A program made the translations under genes and the position numbers. From an uncultured Lachnospiraceae bacterium (GTDB lineage: Bacteria; Bacillota; Clostridia; Lachnospirales; Lachnospiraceae), in contig CANQRU010000018.1 of the NCBI GenBank assembly GCA_947626395.1, positions 1-62,479 of the forward strand: a DNA stretch of 62,479 nucleotides, read 5' to 3'. Position 1 is the stretch's first letter, and every line of letters begins with the position of its first letter. Shown in pieces: positions 8,256 through 17,031 of this stretch. The notes under the pieces were generated by a model. The model was given only the letters and a program-made list of their open reading frames with translations, was not told the origin of the DNA and did no database searches.

Positions 8256-8690
8256 ATGAAGAGTTTTATGGCTAGTCCGGCGACCATCGAACGGAAGTGG
8301 TATGTCGTCGATGCGACCGGATATACATTAGGACGCCTGGCAGCGGAGGTTGCCAAGGTGCTGCGCGGCAAGAACAAGCCCATTTATACGCCGTTCATGG
8401 ACTGCGGCGACTATGTGATCGTCGTCAACGCCGCGAAAGTGAAGGTCACCGGCCGCAAGCTGGACCAGAAGATCTATTATCATCACTCTGATTATGTAGG
8501 CGGCATGAAAGAGACCACCCTGCGCGAGATGATGGCGAGAAAGCCGGAGCGCGTGGTTGAACTGGCGGTCAAGGGTATGCTTCCCAAGGGATCCTTAGGA
8601 GCTGACATGTACAGGAAGCTGCATGTATACGCGGGCCCGGAGCACGAGCACGCGGCACAGCAGCCGGAAGTACTGGAACTCAAGTTTTAA
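8256..8690 (+). CDS. rplM: 50S ribosomal protein L13
   Basis: Early-assembly protein of the large ribosomal subunit, 144 residues, full length. Family landmarks are [40 protein letters not shown] and the C-terminal [29 protein letters not shown]. It starts at ATG 8256 behind AGGAGG and is followed 22 bases later by rpsI, the universal bacterial pairing. Confidence 0.98.
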
Positions 8691-8712
8691 GGTCTGAAAG
8701 GAGGAGAATAGC

Positions 8713-9105
8713 ATGGCCGTTACAAGATATTACGGAACAGGCAGAAGGAAGAAATCCATCGCAAGAGTATATTTGATGCCGGGTACCGGCAAGATTACGA
8801 TCAACAAGAGAGATATCGACGAGTATCTGGGCCTTGAGACCCTGAAGCTGCTCGTTCGTCAGCCTCTGGTAGCTACGGACAACGTCGACAAGTTCGATGT
8901 TATGGTCAACGTCCGCGGCGGCGGCTTCACCGGCCAGGCCGGCGCGATCCGTCATGGCATCTCCCGCGCTCTGCTCCAGGCAGACGCTGAGTATCGTCCG
9001 ATCCTCAAGCAGGCCGGATACCTCACCAGAGATCCGAGAATGAAAGAGCGTAAGAAGTACGGACTTAAGGCAGCCCGTAGAGCGCCGCAGTTTTCAAAGA
9101 GATAA
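8713..9105 (+). CDS. rpsI: 30S ribosomal protein S9
   Basis: Small-subunit protein of 130 residues whose basic C-terminal tail reaches the P-site tRNA. It begins [20 protein letters not shown] and ends in the conserved [17 protein letters not shown]. It is the second gene of the rplM operon, with AAAGGAGG upstream. Its stop codon (9103-9105) abuts the structured element at 9106-9256, with no spacer. Confidence 0.98.
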
Positions 9106-9315: not shown

Positions 9316-10563
9316 TTGCCCGTGACCCTGAAACGTCTGGCCGGCGTCATTGCGCGTACAACGAAAAACTCATTTCTGCAGAAAGCGGCATTTTCGGACT
9401 GGCTGGATCTGTTCCAGATGATTGCAGATTATAAACCGGAAGAAAAGAAAGTGCTGGTCATTGACGAGTTTCCGTACATGGTAAAGGCCAATCCGGCTTT
9501 CCCTTCTGTTTTGCAGAATGCCTGGGATGAGATCCTGAAAGACAGCAATGTGATGCTGATCCTGTCTGGTTCTCTGATCAGTATGATGCAGAAACACGCT
9601 CTGTCCTATGACAGTCCCCTGTATGGCCGCAGAACTTCACAGATGCGTCTGGCTCCGCTGTCATTTACGGATATCTATGCCGTTCAGAAAATGCCGTTTG
9701 AACAGGCGGTGGAACAGTACGCAGTGACGGGCGGCGTTCCCAAGTATCTGGAGTTTTTCGAGGATAGCCGGGGATTGGAAGAACAGATCAAAGATGCGGT
9801 TTTGTCCAAAAGCGGATTTTTGTATGAGGAACCAAACTTCCTGCTGAAAAGTGAATCTGTAACGGCAGCGAACTATTTCTCCATCATCAAAGCCATTGCA
9901 GACGGAAACCATAAGCTGGGCAGGATTGCCGGCGTGTTGGGGCAGGAGACTTCCGCTCTGACGCCATATCTGTCTGCACTTATGGATTTGGGCTTCATCG
10001 AAAAGAAAACGCCGATAACGGAAAAGAACCCGGAAAAATCCCGCAAGGGACTGTATTTCATCTCAGACAATTTCATTCGGTTCTGGTTCCGCTATGTTTA
10101 TCCCTATAAGGGTGAACTGGAACTGGACAATATGCAGCTTGTTCTGGATGAAATCAGCAAAGACTTTGCAGAGAAATTCGTGGCATTTGCTTATGAGGAT
10201 ATCTGCAGAAATATATTTGCGGATCTGTGCAGGAATGGGGAGATTTCTTTTGTGCCGTCCCGTATCGGCTCTTACTGGCTGAACGATTTTGATAGAGATA
10301 CAGAAATTGATGTAATGGCCGCAGACCATCAGAATAAGCGGATATTTGCAGGAGAATGTAAATACCATGCACAGCCGGTGGATGTGCCGGTGTATTATGC
10401 TCTGAAAAAAAAGGTTGATGGCGCCGCTGAAATCCGCAGGGCATTTCCTGGGTATGACGTTATCTTCGGAGTGTTCAGTAAAAGCGGCTTTACGCAGCGT
10501 ATGCTTGATACTGCAAAAGAAAGTACCGGGCTGCTCCTGATCCATGAGGATCACTTGGTGTAA
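9316..10563 (+). pseudogene. 5'-truncated DUF234-type P-loop ATPase
   Basis: An open frame of about 415 residues matching the C-terminal four-fifths of the archaeal-type ATPase/DUF234 family. It has a Walker-B-like segment (VLVIDEFPYM, about residues 45-54), LILSGSLISMMQ, an SPLYGRRTSQMRLAPLSF segment, a winged-helix part and a restriction-endonuclease-like C-terminus (TEIDVMAADHQNKRIFAGECKY). The N-terminal domain with the Walker A P-loop is missing: the frame opens in the tail of the rpsI terminator and the only starts (TTG 9316 and similar) lack an RBS. Lower GC than its neighbours suggests acquired DNA. It is probably non-functional, although the nuclease-like part is intact. Confidence 0.7.
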
Positions 10564-10676: not shown

Positions 10677-13580
10677 ATGTCCCACCTCACCATGGGCATC
10701 CTCGCCCACGTCGATGCCGGCAAGACAACTTTATCCGAAGCGATTCTCTATCAGACAGGAACCATCCGCCGCCTGGGCCGTGTCGACACCCGCGACGCCT
10801 TCCTGGATACCAATTCCCTGGAGCGCGCCCGCGGCATCACGATCTTCTCCAAGCAGGCCGTTTTCGATCTGGGCGACATCCATGTCACCCTTCTGGACAC
10901 CCCCGGCCATGTGGACTTTTCTCCGGAAATGGAACGCACCCTTCAAGTCCTTGACTGCGCCATCCTGGTTGTCAGCGGCGCCGACGGCGTCCAGGGACAC
11001 ACAGAGACCCTGTGGCACCTCCTGAAGCGCTATCAGGTTCCCACGTTCATATTCGTCAATAAAATGGATCAGCCCGGCACGGACTGGCAGGCGGTGCTGG
11101 CCGATATGCGGAAACGCCTCGACGGAAACTGCGTTCCGTTCAACGGACTGGCCCTGCCGCACGCCGGGAATGCCGCAGGTGGGGGGCAGAAGAAGCCGGA
11201 TGATGAGGATACGCCGGTGCTGGCCGATATCGCGTCGCATGCGGATGAGGCGATGGAAGCGCTGGCTATGTGCGACGAAGATGTTCTGGAGCGTTATCTG
11301 GAGAGCGAAACGGTAAGTCCGGAAGAGATCCGGCGTCTGAGCGCGGCCCGGAAGGTATTTCCGTGCTATTTCGGTTCTGCGTTAAAGCTTTGGGGCGTGG
11401 AAGAACTGCTGCGCGGTCTGGAAGAGTTCGGCCGGGAAACTGCATGGGAGAACCGGGCGGCGGCAGATGGACGGGCCGGCTGTATTGACAGGAACAGTTT
11501 CGGCGCCCGCGTCTTTAAAATCTCCCGGGATGATTCCGGAAACCGGCTGACCCATATGAAGATAACCGGAGGCGCGCTGAAGGTGAAGGACACGCTCCCT
11601 GCCGCGATTTCTGCAACCGATGGCGGAACAACGGCGCCGGGCCGTTCCTCCGCGGCGGGGGTGTCATCCGGATCTGCTTCCGCCGGAGCGGCGGATCCGG
11701 AGAAGATCAATCAGATCCGGATCTATTCCGGCACAAAGTATGAGCTGGTAAATGAAGCCGGCCCCGGCGTGGTCTGCGCCGTGACAGGCCCCGTTTCCAC
11801 CTATGCCGGGCAGGCCCTGGGTATCGAGGCGGAGTACGGTCAGGAGACGCCGGTTCTGGAACCGGTTCTCACCTATCAGGTCATTCTTCCTCCGGGAAGC
11901 GACGTCCACAGCATGCTTGCGAAGCTGCGCCAGCTGGAAGAGGAAGAACCGATGCTCCGCATTGCGTGGAACGAATCCCTGGGCGAGATCCAGGCCCAGG
12001 TCATGGGGCAGGTGCAGATCGAGATATTAAAGAGCCTGATCAAAGACCGGTTCGGCGCAGACGTGGAATTCGGAACCGGACATATCGTATATAAAGAGAC
12101 GATCACGGCCCCTGTGGAGGGAATAGGCCATTATGAGCCTCTGCGCCACTATGCGGAGGTACATCTGCTGATGGAGCCCGCGCCCCGCGGAAGCGGTCTG
12201 AGTTTCGGTACGGCCTGCAGTACGGATGTGCTGGATCTGAACTGGCAGCGGCTGATCCTGACCCACCTGGAAGAGAAAGCCCATATCGGTGTGCTGACCG
12301 GCGCCCGGATCACGGATATGAAGATCACGCTTCTGACGGGACGTGCCCATTTAAAGCATACAGAAGGCGGAGATTTCCGGCAATCTACATATCGGGCCGT
12401 CCGCCATGGGCTGATGCAGGCCCTGACGGCGGGCAGCTACCAGCTTCTGGAACCGTACTACCGGTTCCGGCTGGAGGTTCCGATGGAATCGGCCGGCCGG
12501 GCCCTGTCGGATCTGGAGCGGATGAACGCCCGGTTCACAGGCCCGGAGATGGAAGGAAATACGGCGGTCATCACCGGCGAAGGGCCGGTATCGGCCATGG
12601 GAAATTACCAGATGGAGGTGACTTCCTATACGAAAGGCCGGGGCAGGTTCAGCTGCAGCCTGAAAGGTTATGAACCGTGCCACAACACGGAGGAAGCAGT
12701 CTCGGCTGCCGGCTACGATCCGGAGCTTGACCTTGAGAATCCCTGCGGTTCCGTGTTCTGCGCCCACGGCGCGGGATTCGTGGTGGACTGGCGGGATGTG
12801 AAGCGGTATATGCATCTGGAAAGTCCGCTGGATCTGGCGGCGCGGAGGAACCGCGCGGCGGCGTCTCCCAGGCCCCAGGCCCCCTGGGGAGCCGAAGACA
12901 AAGAGCTGGAGGCTATTTTCACCAGGACCTACGGCGAACCGAAGCGCCGCCTTCCGTCGGAGGCAGGACCGCGCCATGTCAGTTACGATGGGAAACGCGC
13001 GGCGAAGCCGGAGGATCCGCCGGAAGAGGAATACCTTCTGGTGGACGGCTACAATATCATCTACGCATGGCCGGAACTTCATGAACTGGCGGAAGCCACG
13101 ATCGACGGGGCCCGGCAGCGGCTGATGGATATCATGTGCAATTACCAGGGATATACCGGATGTATTCTGATCCTGGTCTTCGACGCATATAAAGTGGAAG
13201 GGGGCCTGGGACAGGCCATCCGTTACCATAATATCAATGTGGTTTATACGAAAGAGGCGGAAACCGCTGATCAGTATATTGAGAAACTGGCCCATCAGAT
13301 GGGGCGCAGCCACCAGGTGACGGTGGCCACCTCCGACGGGCTGGAACAGCTGATCATCCGCGGCCAGGGCTGCCGGCTGATGTCGGCGCAGGATCTGAGG
13401 GAAGCGGTGGACTATGTAAATGAACAGATCCGGACAGAGCATCTGGATCATCTCGCGAAGCTTCCGGCCCGCGGCAACTATCTTCTGAATCACGCGGACG
13501 GCGGACTTCGGGAATATCTGGAAGAGGTCAGACTGGGAAAAGAGGGAGAGTATCATGGCGGAGAAACTGACAAAAAGTGA
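10677..13580 (+). CDS. TetM/TetO-like ribosomal GTPase fused to a C-terminal YacP/Rae1-type NYN nuclease domain
   Basis: A 967-residue translational GTPase of the ribosomal-protection family. G motifs are GILAHVDAGKTTLS (G1), RARGITIF (G2), DTPGHVDF (G3), VNKMD (G4) and GSALK (G5). EF-G-like domains II-V follow to about residue 700, for example the GRGRFSCSLKGYEP segment. After a charged linker (about 730-785) comes an added NYN/PIN-like domain (about 785-930) with acidic residues in LLVDGYNIIYAW, LVFDAYK, TADQY and VATSDGLEQ. Stand-alone YacP in Bacillus is Rae1, an endonuclease that cleaves mRNA in the ribosomal A site. The fusion could bring such a nuclease to the ribosome (inference). Tetracycline resistance cannot be claimed. 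It overlaps the next gene by 26 bases. Confidence 0.88.
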   Translation: MSHLTMGILAHVDAGKTTLSEAILYQTGTIRRLGRVDTRDAFLDTNSLERARGITIFSKQAVFDLGDIHVTLLDTPGHVDFSPEMERTLQVLDCAILVVSGADGVQGHTETLWHLLKRYQVPTFIFVNKMDQPGTDWQAVLADMRKRLDGNCVPFNGLALPHAGNAAGGGQKKPDDEDTPVLADIASHADEAMEALAMCDEDVLERYLESETVSPEEIRRLSAARKVFPCYFGSALKLWGVEELLRGLEEFGRETAWENRAAADGRAGCIDRNSFGARVFKISRDDSGNRLTHMKITGGALKVKDTLPAAISATDGGTTAPGRSSAAGVSSGSASAGAADPEKINQIRIYSGTKYELVNEAGPGVVCAVTGPVSTYAGQALGIEAEYGQETPVLEPVLTYQVILPPGSDVHSMLAKLRQLEEEEPMLRIAWNESLGEIQAQVMGQVQIEILKSLIKDRFGADVEFGTGHIVYKETITAPVEGIGHYEPLRHYAEVHLLMEPAPRGSGLSFGTACSTDVLDLNWQRLILTHLEEKAHIGVLTGARITDMKITLLTGRAHLKHTEGGDFRQSTYRAVRHGLMQALTAGSYQLLEPYYRFRLEVPMESAGRALSDLERMNARFTGPEMEGNTAVITGEGPVSAMGNYQMEVTSYTKGRGRFSCSLKGYEPCHNTEEAVSAAGYDPELDLENPCGSVFCAHGAGFVVDWRDVKRYMHLESPLDLAARRNRAAASPRPQAPWGAEDKELEAIFTRTYGEPKRRLPSEAGPRHVSYDGKRAAKPEDPPEEEYLLVDGYNIIYAWPELHELAEATIDGARQRLMDIMCNYQGYTGCILILVFDAYKVEGGLGQAIRYHNINVVYTKEAETADQYIEKLAHQMGRSHQVTVATSDGLEQLIIRGQGCRLMSAQDLREAVDYVNEQIRTEHLDHLAKLPARGNYLLNHADGGLREYLEEVRLGKEGEYHGGETDKK

Positions 13581-14058
13581 CGTGGAGAAAATCGAAGCGG
13601 AGATCGAGCACCGGAAGCTGGTCGTCCGGAAGGAAGCGCTGGAAGCGCTGAAAGAGGCGCGTTCCCACGGCGATCTGAGTGAGAATTTCGAGTATTACGC
13701 GGCCAAGAGGGACAAAAACCAGAACGAGAGCCGCATCCGCTATCTGGAGAGGATGCTGAGGACGGCTGAGATCATATCCGACGAGTCGAAGGAAGATGAA
13801 GTGGGCCTTAACAATACGGTAGAGCTCTATATGGAGGACGACGATGAGGTGGAGACGTATCGGCTGGTCACATCGATCCGCGGCAGTTCCCTGCAGGGAC
13901 TGATCAGCACAGAGTCGCCGCTGGGCCGCGCGATCCTGGGGCGGAAATTGGGCGAGCGCGTCTATGTCCGCGTAAATGAGAACACCGGGTATTATGTGGA
14001 GATCCGCTCGATCGATAAGACCACCGACGATAAAAATGATAAGATACGCAGTTATTAA
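13555..14058 (+). CDS. greA: GreA/GreB-family transcript cleavage factor
   Basis: A 167-residue Gre factor: an N-terminal antiparallel coiled coil with the acidic tip in HGDLSENFEYYAAK (family DLSEN motif) and a C-terminal FKBP-like domain (ESPLGRAILGRKLGERVYV). It stimulates intrinsic RNA cleavage by stalled RNA polymerase. ATG 13555 lies inside the 3' end of the TetM-NYN gene with an AAAGAGGGAGAG RBS, indicating translational coupling. It may be a second Gre in the genome, since it diverges from canonical GreA and is not in a lysS context. It ends ahead of the hairpin at 14078. Confidence 0.85.
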   Translation: MAEKLTKSDVEKIEAEIEHRKLVVRKEALEALKEARSHGDLSENFEYYAAKRDKNQNESRIRYLERMLRTAEIISDESKEDEVGLNNTVELYMEDDDEVETYRLVTSIRGSSLQGLISTESPLGRAILGRKLGERVYVRVNENTGYYVEIRSIDKTTDDKNDKIRSY

Positions 14059-14154: not shown

Positions 14155-14475
14155 TCACCGGATACCCTTCATCTTGCCTTCTGCATTCACATAGTAGTTA
14201 TCGATCCACTGATCCTTTGCCAGAACTCCATGTTCGTCGAAGTAATACCAGGAACCCTTCAGTTTAAACCAGCCGGTCTTAAGAACTCCGTCCTCATCCA
14301 GATAGTAAGTCTTCTCTCCATCCTCGATCCAGCCGGTAATACTCTCACCGTTATCATCCACATAGGTCCAGGTCTTATCTTCATGCACTGTCCAGGTGCC
14401 GGCGTATACCGGGGTAGACATCGAAAGGAGCATCAGAAAGGAAATCACGACTGCACAGATCCGTATTCTCTTCAT
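14155..14475 (-). CDS. Short secreted choline-binding-type wall-repeat protein
   Basis: A 106-residue exported protein: signal peptide MKRIRICAVVISFLMLLS, then three to four aromatic/Gly cell-wall-binding repeats (ITGWIEDGEKTYYLDEDG, LKTGWFKLKGSWYYFDEHG). Such repeats bind choline or other wall polymers. ATG 14475 is chosen for its AAGGAGG; the longer frame adds 22 residues without an RBS. It has no enzymatic domain, like the much larger repeat protein at 15553-17031, and may be a surface adhesin fragment or decoy (inference). Confidence 0.8.
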   Translation of the reverse strand: MKRIRICAVVISFLMLLSMSTPVYAGTWTVHEDKTWTYVDDNGESITGWIEDGEKTYYLDEDGVLKTGWFKLKGSWYYFDEHGVLAKDQWIDNYYVNAEGKMKGIR

Positions 14476-14819
14476 CGTTACAGCCTCCTTTCCATAGATA
14501 AATCCGCACGCCATCCATTGCTTACGAGCACAGTATAGCACACTGTCTGACGTTTGACTAGGGGGGAAGAACGGGGAAAATCTTACGATTTTTGAACATT
14601 AATCTTACTAAAAATATTTCGACAAAATCAGCGTTTTTTCGCCATGAAGACGGTTCCAGAAATGGTATCCGGAGGGAAATGGAGACGGCATATTTTGTGG
14701 TCGGACGGAAAATAAACCGGAACGCGGACGGATCCATGTCGAATCATGCGCACGAATTTGCTTTTCAAACCTCTGAAAATGTTTTATATTGGAAAGCAGC
14801 CAGGAAGGAGGGGGACCAA

Positions 14820-15552: not shown

Positions 15553-17031
15553 TTACTGCACGATACCGTTTACATCTACGGTCCAGACGGTGTCGTTGGC
15601 GTCTCTTACATCCCTGAAGCCTGCGCCCAGGTCGGGACGCGACGCGGATTTGGAAGAGGAGGAAGCCTTCTGGATCGTGCCGGAGGCGTTGACCAGATAT
15701 TTCCGGCCCTCAAAGGCTACAGGGGCATAGCGCAGATCCTTGTCGGCGTCCAGACGCATGCCGTGGCTGTAGACCGCGTTTCCGTAGATGCCGTGGAAGC
15801 CCTGGCCGCGGGCGGAACCTTCCGTCTGGAAGTACCAGATCTGGTTCATCTCCGTGTCGTCGTTGAAAATAGTCTGCTTGCCTGTCTTCATGGCGCCGTT
15901 TTCGCCGAAGTAGTAGTTGGCGGCCGAACCGTCGTCAAGAGTCACGACCGTAAGGCCGGTCTGCATTTCGCCCTTGTCATTGAAAGCATAGCGGTCGGAA
16001 CCGATGCCGAACACCTGGATGCCGCCGTTCGCCGCGTAATGCGGTACGCCGCTCTTGAAGTAGAAGCGATAGGTCTCGTCTTCCGCGGAGACGCCGGGGA
16101 TCCCCGTGATCGTCAGCCAGCCGGAAGCGCGTTTTCCGCTCTCTTCGTAGTACTGATAGCCGGCAGCCGGGGCGGTCACGGCCGGCTGGGAGTTATCGTT
16201 TTCTTCGGCCACGGGAGTCTCGTCTGCGGCAGTTTCGGTTTCCGCAGGGGCCTCGGTTTCTGCCGCAGCTTCGGTTTCCGTTGCGGTTCCGTCTCCGTTA
16301 TTGGCTTTTGCCTCGGCATTCGCTGCATTCTCGGTTCCTGCTGCAGTCTCAGCATCCTCGTCGTCCGTCTTTTCCGGCAGCTTATACCAGCCGGTGATCA
16401 TGACGCCGTCCTCGAAGGAGTAATAGGAGCCGCTGATCTTTCTGTCAAGCTGGTTTTCGATCCGCCGGCCGTGGCTGTCGAAGTAGGACCAGACGGTCGT
16501 ATCGCCGAATTCGTCATTATCCGCCGGCAGTTCGACCCAGCCCTTCTTCATGGCTCCGCTTCCGGAGAAATAGTAAACGGCGCTGTCAACTTCGGTCAGT
16601 CCCGTGGCCATTCGTCCTTCCTCGTCGAAATAGTAGGACGCGCCGTCGATCTCTTTGAATTTGGAAGAGATCATCTGGCCGTTGCTGCCGTAATAGTACC
16701 AGTACTGCGCGGGAGCCGTCTCGTCCCATTCATCCTCGTTTTTGACGGCGACCCATTTGTCGGTGACGCGCTTGCCTTCGCCATCCACGTAGTATTCGCT
16801 GACCTGACGGTTCGTGGCCATATTGCCGTTCTCGTCCAGATAGTACCAGTCGTCGCCGTACTTTTTCCAGGAATCGGTCAGGGAGTATCCGTCGTTATCG
16901 TAGTATTTCCAGTTCTCGTTCTCCTGTACCCATCCGGCGCCCTGGGCCAGAGCCGCGGAGCTGAAGACAGGAGCCATAGCGCATAATGCTGCCGCAGAGA
17001 TCGCGGCTGTCCATTTGATGGTGTTTCTCAT
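15553..17031 (-). CDS. Secreted cell-wall-binding repeat protein
   Basis: A 492-residue exported protein. The signal peptide (MRNTIKWTAAISAAALCAM...) is followed by about ten choline-binding-type repeats (for example WKYYDNDGYSLTDSWKKYGD, YYFSGSGAMKKGW, YYFGENGAMKTG). An Ala/Glu/Thr-rich acidic spacer (about 222-280, rich in AAAETEAPAETE) splits the repeat array in two. No catalytic domain is evident; the C-terminus (VRDANDTVWTVDVNGIVQ) is a small unknown fold. RBS AAAGGAG precedes ATG 17031. It probably attaches non-covalently to wall polymers made by the adjacent polysaccharide locus (inference). Confidence 0.85.
   Translation of the reverse strand: MRNTIKWTAAISAAALCAMAPVFSSAALAQGAGWVQENENWKYYDNDGYSLTDSWKKYGDDWYYLDENGNMATNRQVSEYYVDGEGKRVTDKWVAVKNEDEWDETAPAQYWYYYGSNGQMISSKFKEIDGASYYFDEEGRMATGLTEVDSAVYYFSGSGAMKKGWVELPADNDEFGDTTVWSYFDSHGRRIENQLDRKISGSYYSFEDGVMITGWYKLPEKTDDEDAETAAGTENAANAEAKANNGDGTATETEAAAETEAPAETETAADETPVAEENDNSQPAVTAPAAGYQYYEESGKRASGWLTITGIPGVSAEDETYRFYFKSGVPHYAANGGIQVFGIGSDRYAFNDKGEMQTGLTVVTLDDGSAANYYFGENGAMKTGKQTIFNDDTEMNQIWYFQTEGSARGQGFHGIYGNAVYSHGMRLDADKDLRYAPVAFEGRKYLVNASGTIQKASSSSKSASRPDLGAGFRDVRDANDTVWTVDVNGIVQ

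Follow-up and report, generated by a model that had tools for sequence, protein, structure and literature searches.

A translational GTPase fused to a Rae1-type nuclease as the usual form of Rae1 in the Lachnospiraceae

The window analysed here is a stretch of 62,479 nucleotides (nt) of DNA from an uncultured Lachnospiraceae bacterium, and the element under study is a gene on its forward strand in which a translational GTPase is fused to a nuclease domain of the NYN_YacP (Rae1) family. Comparison of the window with its relatives showed that the fusion is the usual form of Rae1 in the family, found in 123 of 150 genomes, and that it stands in as the only Rae1 gene of the genomes that carry it. 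The reading that we consider best, and hold to be fairly probable, is that the protein is a resident Rae1, tethered to a GTPase, which would cut mRNA on stalled ribosomes.

The architecture itself is already known. A passage in Atkinson 2015 (PMC4342817) describes ten clostridial species whose Tet proteins carry a YacP-like NYN domain, and suggests a mechanism of resistance. These proteins apparently have the same architecture as ours, but in that passage they are classed as Tet proteins with a possible role in resistance, whereas here the GTPase is by profile and tree a separate subfamily, and the protein is widespread and the resident Rae1. What is new is the standing of the fusion, that is its prevalence, its role as sole Rae1, the separate GTPase subfamily, and a nuclease that appears intact and is constrained. 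No paper treating the fusion as Rae1 was found in the literature searched, which did not cover Condon 2018, on the distribution of Rae1, where the fusion may be mentioned.

The fused protein and its nuclease

The frame starts with ATG and runs through 967 codons without an internal stop. It is composed of the following parts.

10677-13580, forward strand: the whole fusion gene, translational GTPase plus NYN/Rae1 nuclease, 967 amino acids (open reading frame and Pfam)
10680-11423, forward strand: G domain (residues 2-249) with all five G motifs (Pfam GTP_EFTU, 177 bits)
11505-11813, forward strand: domain II-like region (residues 277-379; EF-G_D2, 20.8 bits, under the Pfam cut-off of 27)
11859-12689, forward strand: domains III, IV and V (residues 395-671; Pfam, over cut-off)
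12354-12377, forward strand: tip loop III of domain IV, KHTEGGDF (residues 560-567; alignment with Tet proteins)
12690-12815, forward strand: conserved C-terminal extension of the GTPase, SVFC..G...V.W.....YMH (residues 672-713; alignment)
12816-13031, forward strand: linker (residues 714-785; alignment)
12900-12935, forward strand: conserved linker motif KELEAIFTRTYG, helix-like by eye (alignment)
13032-13517, forward strand: NYN_YacP (Rae1) nuclease domain with D790, N793, D836, D865 and D887 (Pfam)
13392-13577, forward strand: C-terminal tail (residues 906-967; comparison of fused and stand-alone tails)

An earlier note on this DNA had described a single frame with five G motifs and a C-terminal NYN domain carrying acidic residues, and both the open reading frame and the Pfam matches bear this out. 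The joining is not a matter of chance, since the same fusion occurs in 123 genomes of the family. The G motifs of the window protein read AHVDAGKTT, RGIT, DTPGH, NKMD and GSAL, and they are kept across a 30-row alignment with variation at A14, R52, M130, S234 and A235. The features of an EF2-type translational GTPase, the five G motifs and domains II to V, were all found, domain II scoring under the cut-off in the window protein; the Pfam limits of the later domains are 395-466 (EFG_III), 469-582 (EFG_IV) and 589-671 (EFG_C). The closest solved structures to the GTPase part are EF-G, followed by TetO and TetM. The NYN_YacP (PF05991) match covers residues 787-947 with 165.9 bits against a cut-off of 24.6, and the closest solved structure is Bacillus subtilis YacP (5mq8/5mq9, E about 2e-27).

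The alignment supports the view that the NYN domain is an intact Rae1. The acidic residues of the motifs picked out in the earlier note (DGYN, VFDAYK, TADQY and SDGLE) are D790, D836, D865 and D887; a loss of this Rae1-type active site was looked for on alignment and not found. Together with N793 they are invariant in all 131 fused rows, 130 of which are distinct (the rows come from the fetched loci, the repeat loci L001-L013 and L094 were excluded, and L050 and L143 are one sequence). Among the 45 other NYN rows, made up of 38 stand-alone genes and seven pieces of broken or cut fusions, the same five residues are kept in 44 or 45, the sole miss being a gap. They align with D7, N10, D53, D81 and D104 of B. 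subtilis Rae1, a member of the same NYN_YacP family, with which the position of Q108 is shared as well. In a paper from 2017, D7 and D81 are reportedly the catalytic pair. Unlike the fusion, B. subtilis Rae1 is a free protein of 170 amino acids encoded in the order cysS-mrnC-rlmB-rae1-sigH, while the NYN domain of the fusion is the C-terminal part of a GTPase of 967 amino acids at another locus.

Purifying selection is strongest on the nuclease part of the fusion. When the window was compared with the two nearest relatives found, omega was 0.019 and 0.033 for the nuclease core, as compared to 0.108 and 0.125 for the GTPase, 0.141 and 0.247 for the linker and 0.147 and 0.080 for the tail (Nei-Gojobori; dS is above 1 in parts of one of the two comparisons).

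The linker motif is specific to fusions. In the form E[LIVM]xx[ILV][FMLY]xxT[FY] it was found in 89 of 130 distinct fusion linkers (four of the 130 being empty, the domain boundary having been placed too late) and at the N-terminus of none of the 38 stand-alone genes. Of 2620 shuffled linkers one has it, and among the remaining NYN rows only L023, a cut piece. The lengths of the linkers vary widely among the fusions, and no match to the linker was found among the solved structures in the PDB.

The tail segment after the conserved SA has a median net charge of -2 in the fusions (n=132) and +2.5 in the stand-alone genes (n=38, the split locus L025 included; p 1e-11, uncorrected for kinship). The stand-alone median is +3 outside the family and already 0 inside it, so that part of the shift is due to lineage and not to the fusion. 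The charge is therefore no more than suggestive of a tail whose place is taken by the GTPase, and was set aside as proof. In B. subtilis Rae1, a passage of PMC6613710 counts R166P, in the tail, among the mutations that its authors classed as loss of function.

The fusion in the place of the stand-alone gene

Three samples of genomes were compared, 150 from the family and 245 from the class, both including the window's own genome, and 249 from the phylum. NYN_YacP was found in 135 genomes of the family sample; 123 have the fusion (a number obtained by subtraction, with some of the frames frameshifted or truncated), nine a stand-alone gene, one a split gene (G042) and two a match at a contig edge, and the remaining 15 have none. 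In the class sample it was found in 161 genomes, 90 fused, 70 stand-alone and one at a contig edge (G372), with none in 84; 12 weak NYN matches were here placed by their GTPase frame. The phylum sample gave an NYN match in 134 genomes, and in 15 it is fused, 11 of these lying outside the class. Over the class and phylum samples the fusion is kept across many families. Among the best 80 of 596 matches, the nearest named relatives are metagenome-assembled genomes of uncultured Lachnospiraceae with isolate names in Lapin-, and the carriers include Anaerostipes butyraticus, Mediterraneibacter massiliensis, [Clostridium] polysaccharolyticum, Pseudoflavonifractor phocaeensis and Anaerovorax odorimutans. 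In the split gene (L025 of G042) the fusion is divided into a GTPase of 711 amino acids and an NYN frame of 190 in overlapping frames, which can reflect a real split or an error in sequencing. Some copies of the fusion with a frameshift or at a contig edge were also met among the loci.

Co-occurrence with a stand-alone yacP had been raised in the earlier note as a point to check. The fusion and the stand-alone gene exclude each other in the samples, which implies that the fusion is the resident Rae1; the bacterium of the window, too, lacks a free Rae1 gene. No confirmed extra stand-alone NYN gene was found in any fusion genome of the family and class samples, and among the 90 fused and 70 stand-alone genomes of the class none was seen with both over the cut-off. 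Second matches occur in a few genomes: in G285, G350 and G390 they have 21 bits, below the cut-off, G282 has two fusions, the two matches of G130 are one gene, that of G076 is a contig-edge fragment under the cut-off, and that of G039, in the family sample, is a contig-edge piece of 139 amino acids.

The loci also differ. In the B. subtilis record rae1 lies between rlmB and sigH, and rlmB directly adjoins 32 of the 38 stand-alone NYN genes as compared to none of the 130 fusions (repeats removed); a single fusion locus, L200, has a member of the rlmB cluster within the stretch that was fetched. A six-frame search around rlmB in 17 fusion-bearing genomes found no NYN domain except the fusion of L235 itself, about 5 kb away, and in 10 of the 17 a sigH homologue follows directly after rlmB. 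The feature of the Rae1 locus, a stand-alone gene for about 170 amino acids in the rlmB-sigH interval, is thus not shared by the fusion, and it is one that defines the locus and not the domain family. In the family f54 (L235 of G370, and L081) the fusion is located downstream of rlmB-sigH, where yacP used to lie, at a distance of about 5 kb; this can be a trace of its birthplace or chance.

A replacement seems to be visible in the genus g181 of family f28. The fusion is present in four of its sampled genomes (G174, G285, G350 and G390); a fifth, G208, has only the stand-alone gene, the NYN domain of which (L069) falls outside the clade containing every fused NYN domain of the tree (support 100/99). 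It therefore looks like a foreign-type fusion took the place of the native rae1 in this genus. Families f23 and f24 also hold both the fused and the stand-alone type.

Two further settings for the fusion were considered. A role in anti-phage defence was set aside, as no PADLOC model was found for the fusion. A mobile-element reading was rejected: NYN matches were found in 23 plasmid records, and among the 15 listed only two are fusions, on large records of 252 and 518 kb called non-mobilizable, the remaining 13 being annotated as NYN proteins or rae1. Some viral records do contain related sequences. Two IMG/VR contigs (2869655816_000001 and 2850414005_000002; L222:1-2178 and L223:1-2178) have at their very edge a GTPase that belongs to the fusion family and lacks NYN, and continue with frames that by eye are phage tail-like and LysM-like, so this GTPase is either host flank or a cargo gene. 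The unannotated faecal 'Bacteriophage sp.' records MT835514.1 and MT835563.1 have an NYN domain 56-58% identical to that of the window, in a prophage with host flank or as cargo.

A separate GTPase subfamily, its origin and its neighbours

The GTPase is a separate subfamily, distinct from the Tet resistance proteins, as judged from profile scores, the domain IV loops and the tree. A profile (A1) made from 30 members of the subfamily was used to score the best eight or five candidates per genome, the values given here being those among the matches listed. Full-length members reach 708-1122 bits with matches running to the end of the profile, and broken or truncated members score lower. The listed Tet-type genes have 417-435 bits (one has 474) and EF-G about 410-430, with matches that end near position 590-608; a few other genes resembling ribosomal protection proteins (RPPs) have 463-540 bits. 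In a GTPase tree of 67 chosen rows the subfamily is one clade apart from the Tet proteins (support 100/100), within which the fusions and two derived unfused rows form one clade (99/98). The best NCBIfam match of the window protein is tet_protect (NF012153), with 418.6 bits against a curated cut-off of 775; three other subfamily members have 408-439 bits, and four control tet genes from kin genomes have 819-1001, over the cut-off. The EF-G model TIGR00484 gave 273.8 bits for the window protein, below its cut-off of 659.4.

The tip of domain IV is also different. Of the 130 distinct fusions 118 have exactly KHTEGGDF as loop III, and so do 15 of the 22 unfused rows. The changes are mostly at E, and the counterparts of this loop are SPVSTPADF in Tet and VDSSEMAF in EF-G. 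According to a passage in PMC8161019, Pro509 of TetM is in contact with the drug site, and in the alignment the SPV motif around this residue is absent from the fusion. Loop I is GHFEPLRHYAEV in the subfamily as compared to HIEVPPNPFWASV in Tet. The order of the G domain and domains II to V, the G motifs and probably the site on the ribosome are the same as in TetM and TetO, but the fusion falls below their curated cut-off, has another domain IV tip and a longer C-terminal extension, and belongs to its own clade. In three genomes (G047, G104 and G005) the fusion coexists with a tet gene that scores over the cut-off. The suggestion of the earlier note that this is not a tetracycline-resistance protein thus agrees with score, loops, tree and coexisting tet genes, on which the opposite identification was rejected. 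Public names differ: the Agathobacter rectalis fusion is named by NCBI as a TetM/TetW/TetO/TetS family resistance protein, and that of Monoglobus is annotated 'translation factor GTPase family protein'.

The subfamily also has members without the nuclease (L102-L113 and L095-L101), which are about 640-655 amino acids long, with one of 724 and one cut at 525. Some genomes of the same family have them, as do other Clostridia, and they end about after the YMH extension, at residues 672-713 of the fusion; some of the genomes have no NYN_YacP at all. They share the loop III consensus and the C-terminal extension with the fusion and lack the NYN domain, and those such as L096 and L102 are placed outside and beside the fusion clade in the tree. 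It is possible that this unfused group is a separate factor, for which we found no job. Five other RPP-like GTPases of 629-673 amino acids (L114-L117 and L119) are all under the Tet cut-off (453-606 bits), and loop III contains H-S/T-x-x-x-D-F or similar (HTHPLDF, HSNPGDF) in all but L117.

In the NYN tree a single clade (100/99) holds the fused domains, the family's stand-alone domains and one more from the same order, so that the nuclease part derives from a rae1 of this sort. The fused domains as one clade are not rejected (p-AU 0.494), so a single fusion event is not rejected by the NYN tree, and it agrees with the GTPase tree. Seven of the family's nine stand-alone NYN genes adjoin rlmB (L015, L016, L017, L019, L020, L021 and L024), which makes them more likely to be originals that were kept than the products of a split fusion, and fission as their source was rejected. 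L014 is not beside rlmB, the neighbours of L018 are unclustered, and L022, from the class sample, also lies elsewhere.

No conserved neighbour genes were found around the fusions. Downstream in the window lies:

13555-14058, forward strand: greA-family gene overlapping the fusion by 26 nt (open reading frame and Pfam)

The earlier note had read this overlap as a hint of a shared response to stalled expression. The overlap stands, but the link to greA is weak, and the shared response is unsupported as a general feature: a greA-family gene was found in the fetched stretches of 7 of 130 distinct fusion loci, plus one frameshifted copy (L029), and not in those of the other 123. It adjoins the fusion in the window, in two clade relatives (L050 and L142) and in L146. 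In L162, L183 and L034 the two genes are one or two same-strand genes apart, as if an older linkage were partly kept. Further downstream, on the reverse strand, are two secreted proteins (14155-14541 and 15553-17031) with aromatic, cell-wall-binding-like repeats (W..YY.., by eye), and upstream of the fusion are rplM and rpsI (by eye, 8256-9105), with an ATPase-like frame at 9316-10563 in between.

Proposed function and its alternatives

For the fusion we infer ribosome binding, an mRNA substrate, an order of events and a physiological role. Three sources give the background: B. subtilis Rae1 is able to attack A-site mRNA (PMC12320835), its action depends on translation (PMC10100781), and the Tet-type RPPs overlap the EF-G site and extend into the A site (PMC8161019). 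The TetM/EF-G-like part would most likely bind at the factor site when a ribosome has stalled or paused and its A site is empty, and the NYN domain on its tether would cut the mRNA in or beside the A site. The cut would begin the decay of the message and leave a non-stop ribosome for rescue. Domain IV and free Rae1 have both been placed in the A site and should not coexist there, and we therefore propose a sequential handover. In the likeliest order the GTPase docks, GTP hydrolysis makes domain IV leave, and the NYN domain may then swing in on its linker of about 70 residues.

Several observations weigh against a GTPase-tethered Rae1 of this kind. The ribosome dependence of the fused NYN domain is carried over by analogy from Bacillus. 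The tip loops of domain IV are not shortened in the alignment, which makes it look impossible that domain IV and the NYN domain occupy the A site jointly. The 15 family genomes without NYN also lack the GTPase, as judged from the best eight or five candidates scored per genome, which suggests that the function of the fusion is dispensable. Furthermore, the two parts are not associated across the class, an unfused GTPase being present in 7 of 70 genomes with a stand-alone NYN and in 6 of 84 without NYN (p 0.57; neither part in 78 genomes, and G280, with a contig-edge GTPase, excluded). This implies that the GTPase can act without NYN and that the tie between them is the fusion itself, and functional coupling as deduced from co-occurrence of the unfused parts was rejected. 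In the family sample the two separate parts do occur together more often, in 5 of 9 genomes as compared to 0 of 15 (p 0.003), but among genomes that are kin.

A more far-reaching version of the tethered Rae1 is conceivable, and we regard it as tentative. The fusion would here be a GTP-gated surveillance nuclease which senses the empty A site and hands over after hydrolysis, and which replaced the free form of Rae1 in a large part of Clostridia, starting from one fusion event and later passing from family to family; the unfused sisters would be uncharacterised stall-release factors, with KHTEGGDF as a decoding-centre loop unlike that of EF-G and Tet. If this is true, stall sensing and mRNA cutting are united in one polypeptide.

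It is rather unlikely that the two activities are independent, joined on one chain for dosage or co-expression with GTPase and NYN domain mechanically uncoupled. The GTPase would here retain whatever task its unfused relatives have, and the NYN domain that of free Rae1. Unfused GTPase relatives do exist in genomes both with and without a stand-alone NYN gene, a GTPase without NYN is found inside the fusion clade (L222), and the linkers differ widely in length. Against this stand the linker motif, which is common in fusions, absent from stand-alone genes and nearly absent from shuffled linkers, and the retention of the fusion across many families. Less probable still is a factor for maturation of rRNA and tRNA, or for assembly or decay of ribosomes, in which the GTPase would bring the NYN domain to rRNA and not to mRNA. 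NYN domains have been proposed to mature rRNA and tRNA, as cited in a passage of PMC4342817, and in PMC12787274 LepA, a relative of EF-G, is connected with the assembly of the 30S subunit. However, the better studied B. subtilis Rae1 is described in passages of PMC12320835 and PMC6613710 as an endonuclease for A-site mRNA, the fusion takes the place of rae1, and 15 of 150 family genomes do without both parts. The view that the fusion protects ribosomes against tetracycline and has its RNase as an additional weapon, as suggested by Atkinson 2015 and echoed in some current annotation, has on its side the domain order of TetM, the NCBI name of the A. rectalis fusion and tet_protect as best match, and it is very improbable given the score far under the cut-off that kin tet genes exceed, domain IV loops I and III unlike Tet, the separate clade, the three genomes with a true tet gene besides the fusion, and the lack of conserved neighbours.

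A GTPase-tethered Rae1 has some consequences beyond the window. A natural fusion of Rae1 with a translational GTPase suggests that recruitment of the nuclease by such a GTPase can work, and it offers a system where the GTP state and the cutting are both accessible in one protein. Since one of the fusions carries a tetracycline-resistance name in public annotation, a housekeeping nuclease may be included in counts of the resistome, and the fusion is, as judged from 123 of 150 sampled genomes, the usual form of Rae1 in a major family of the gut.

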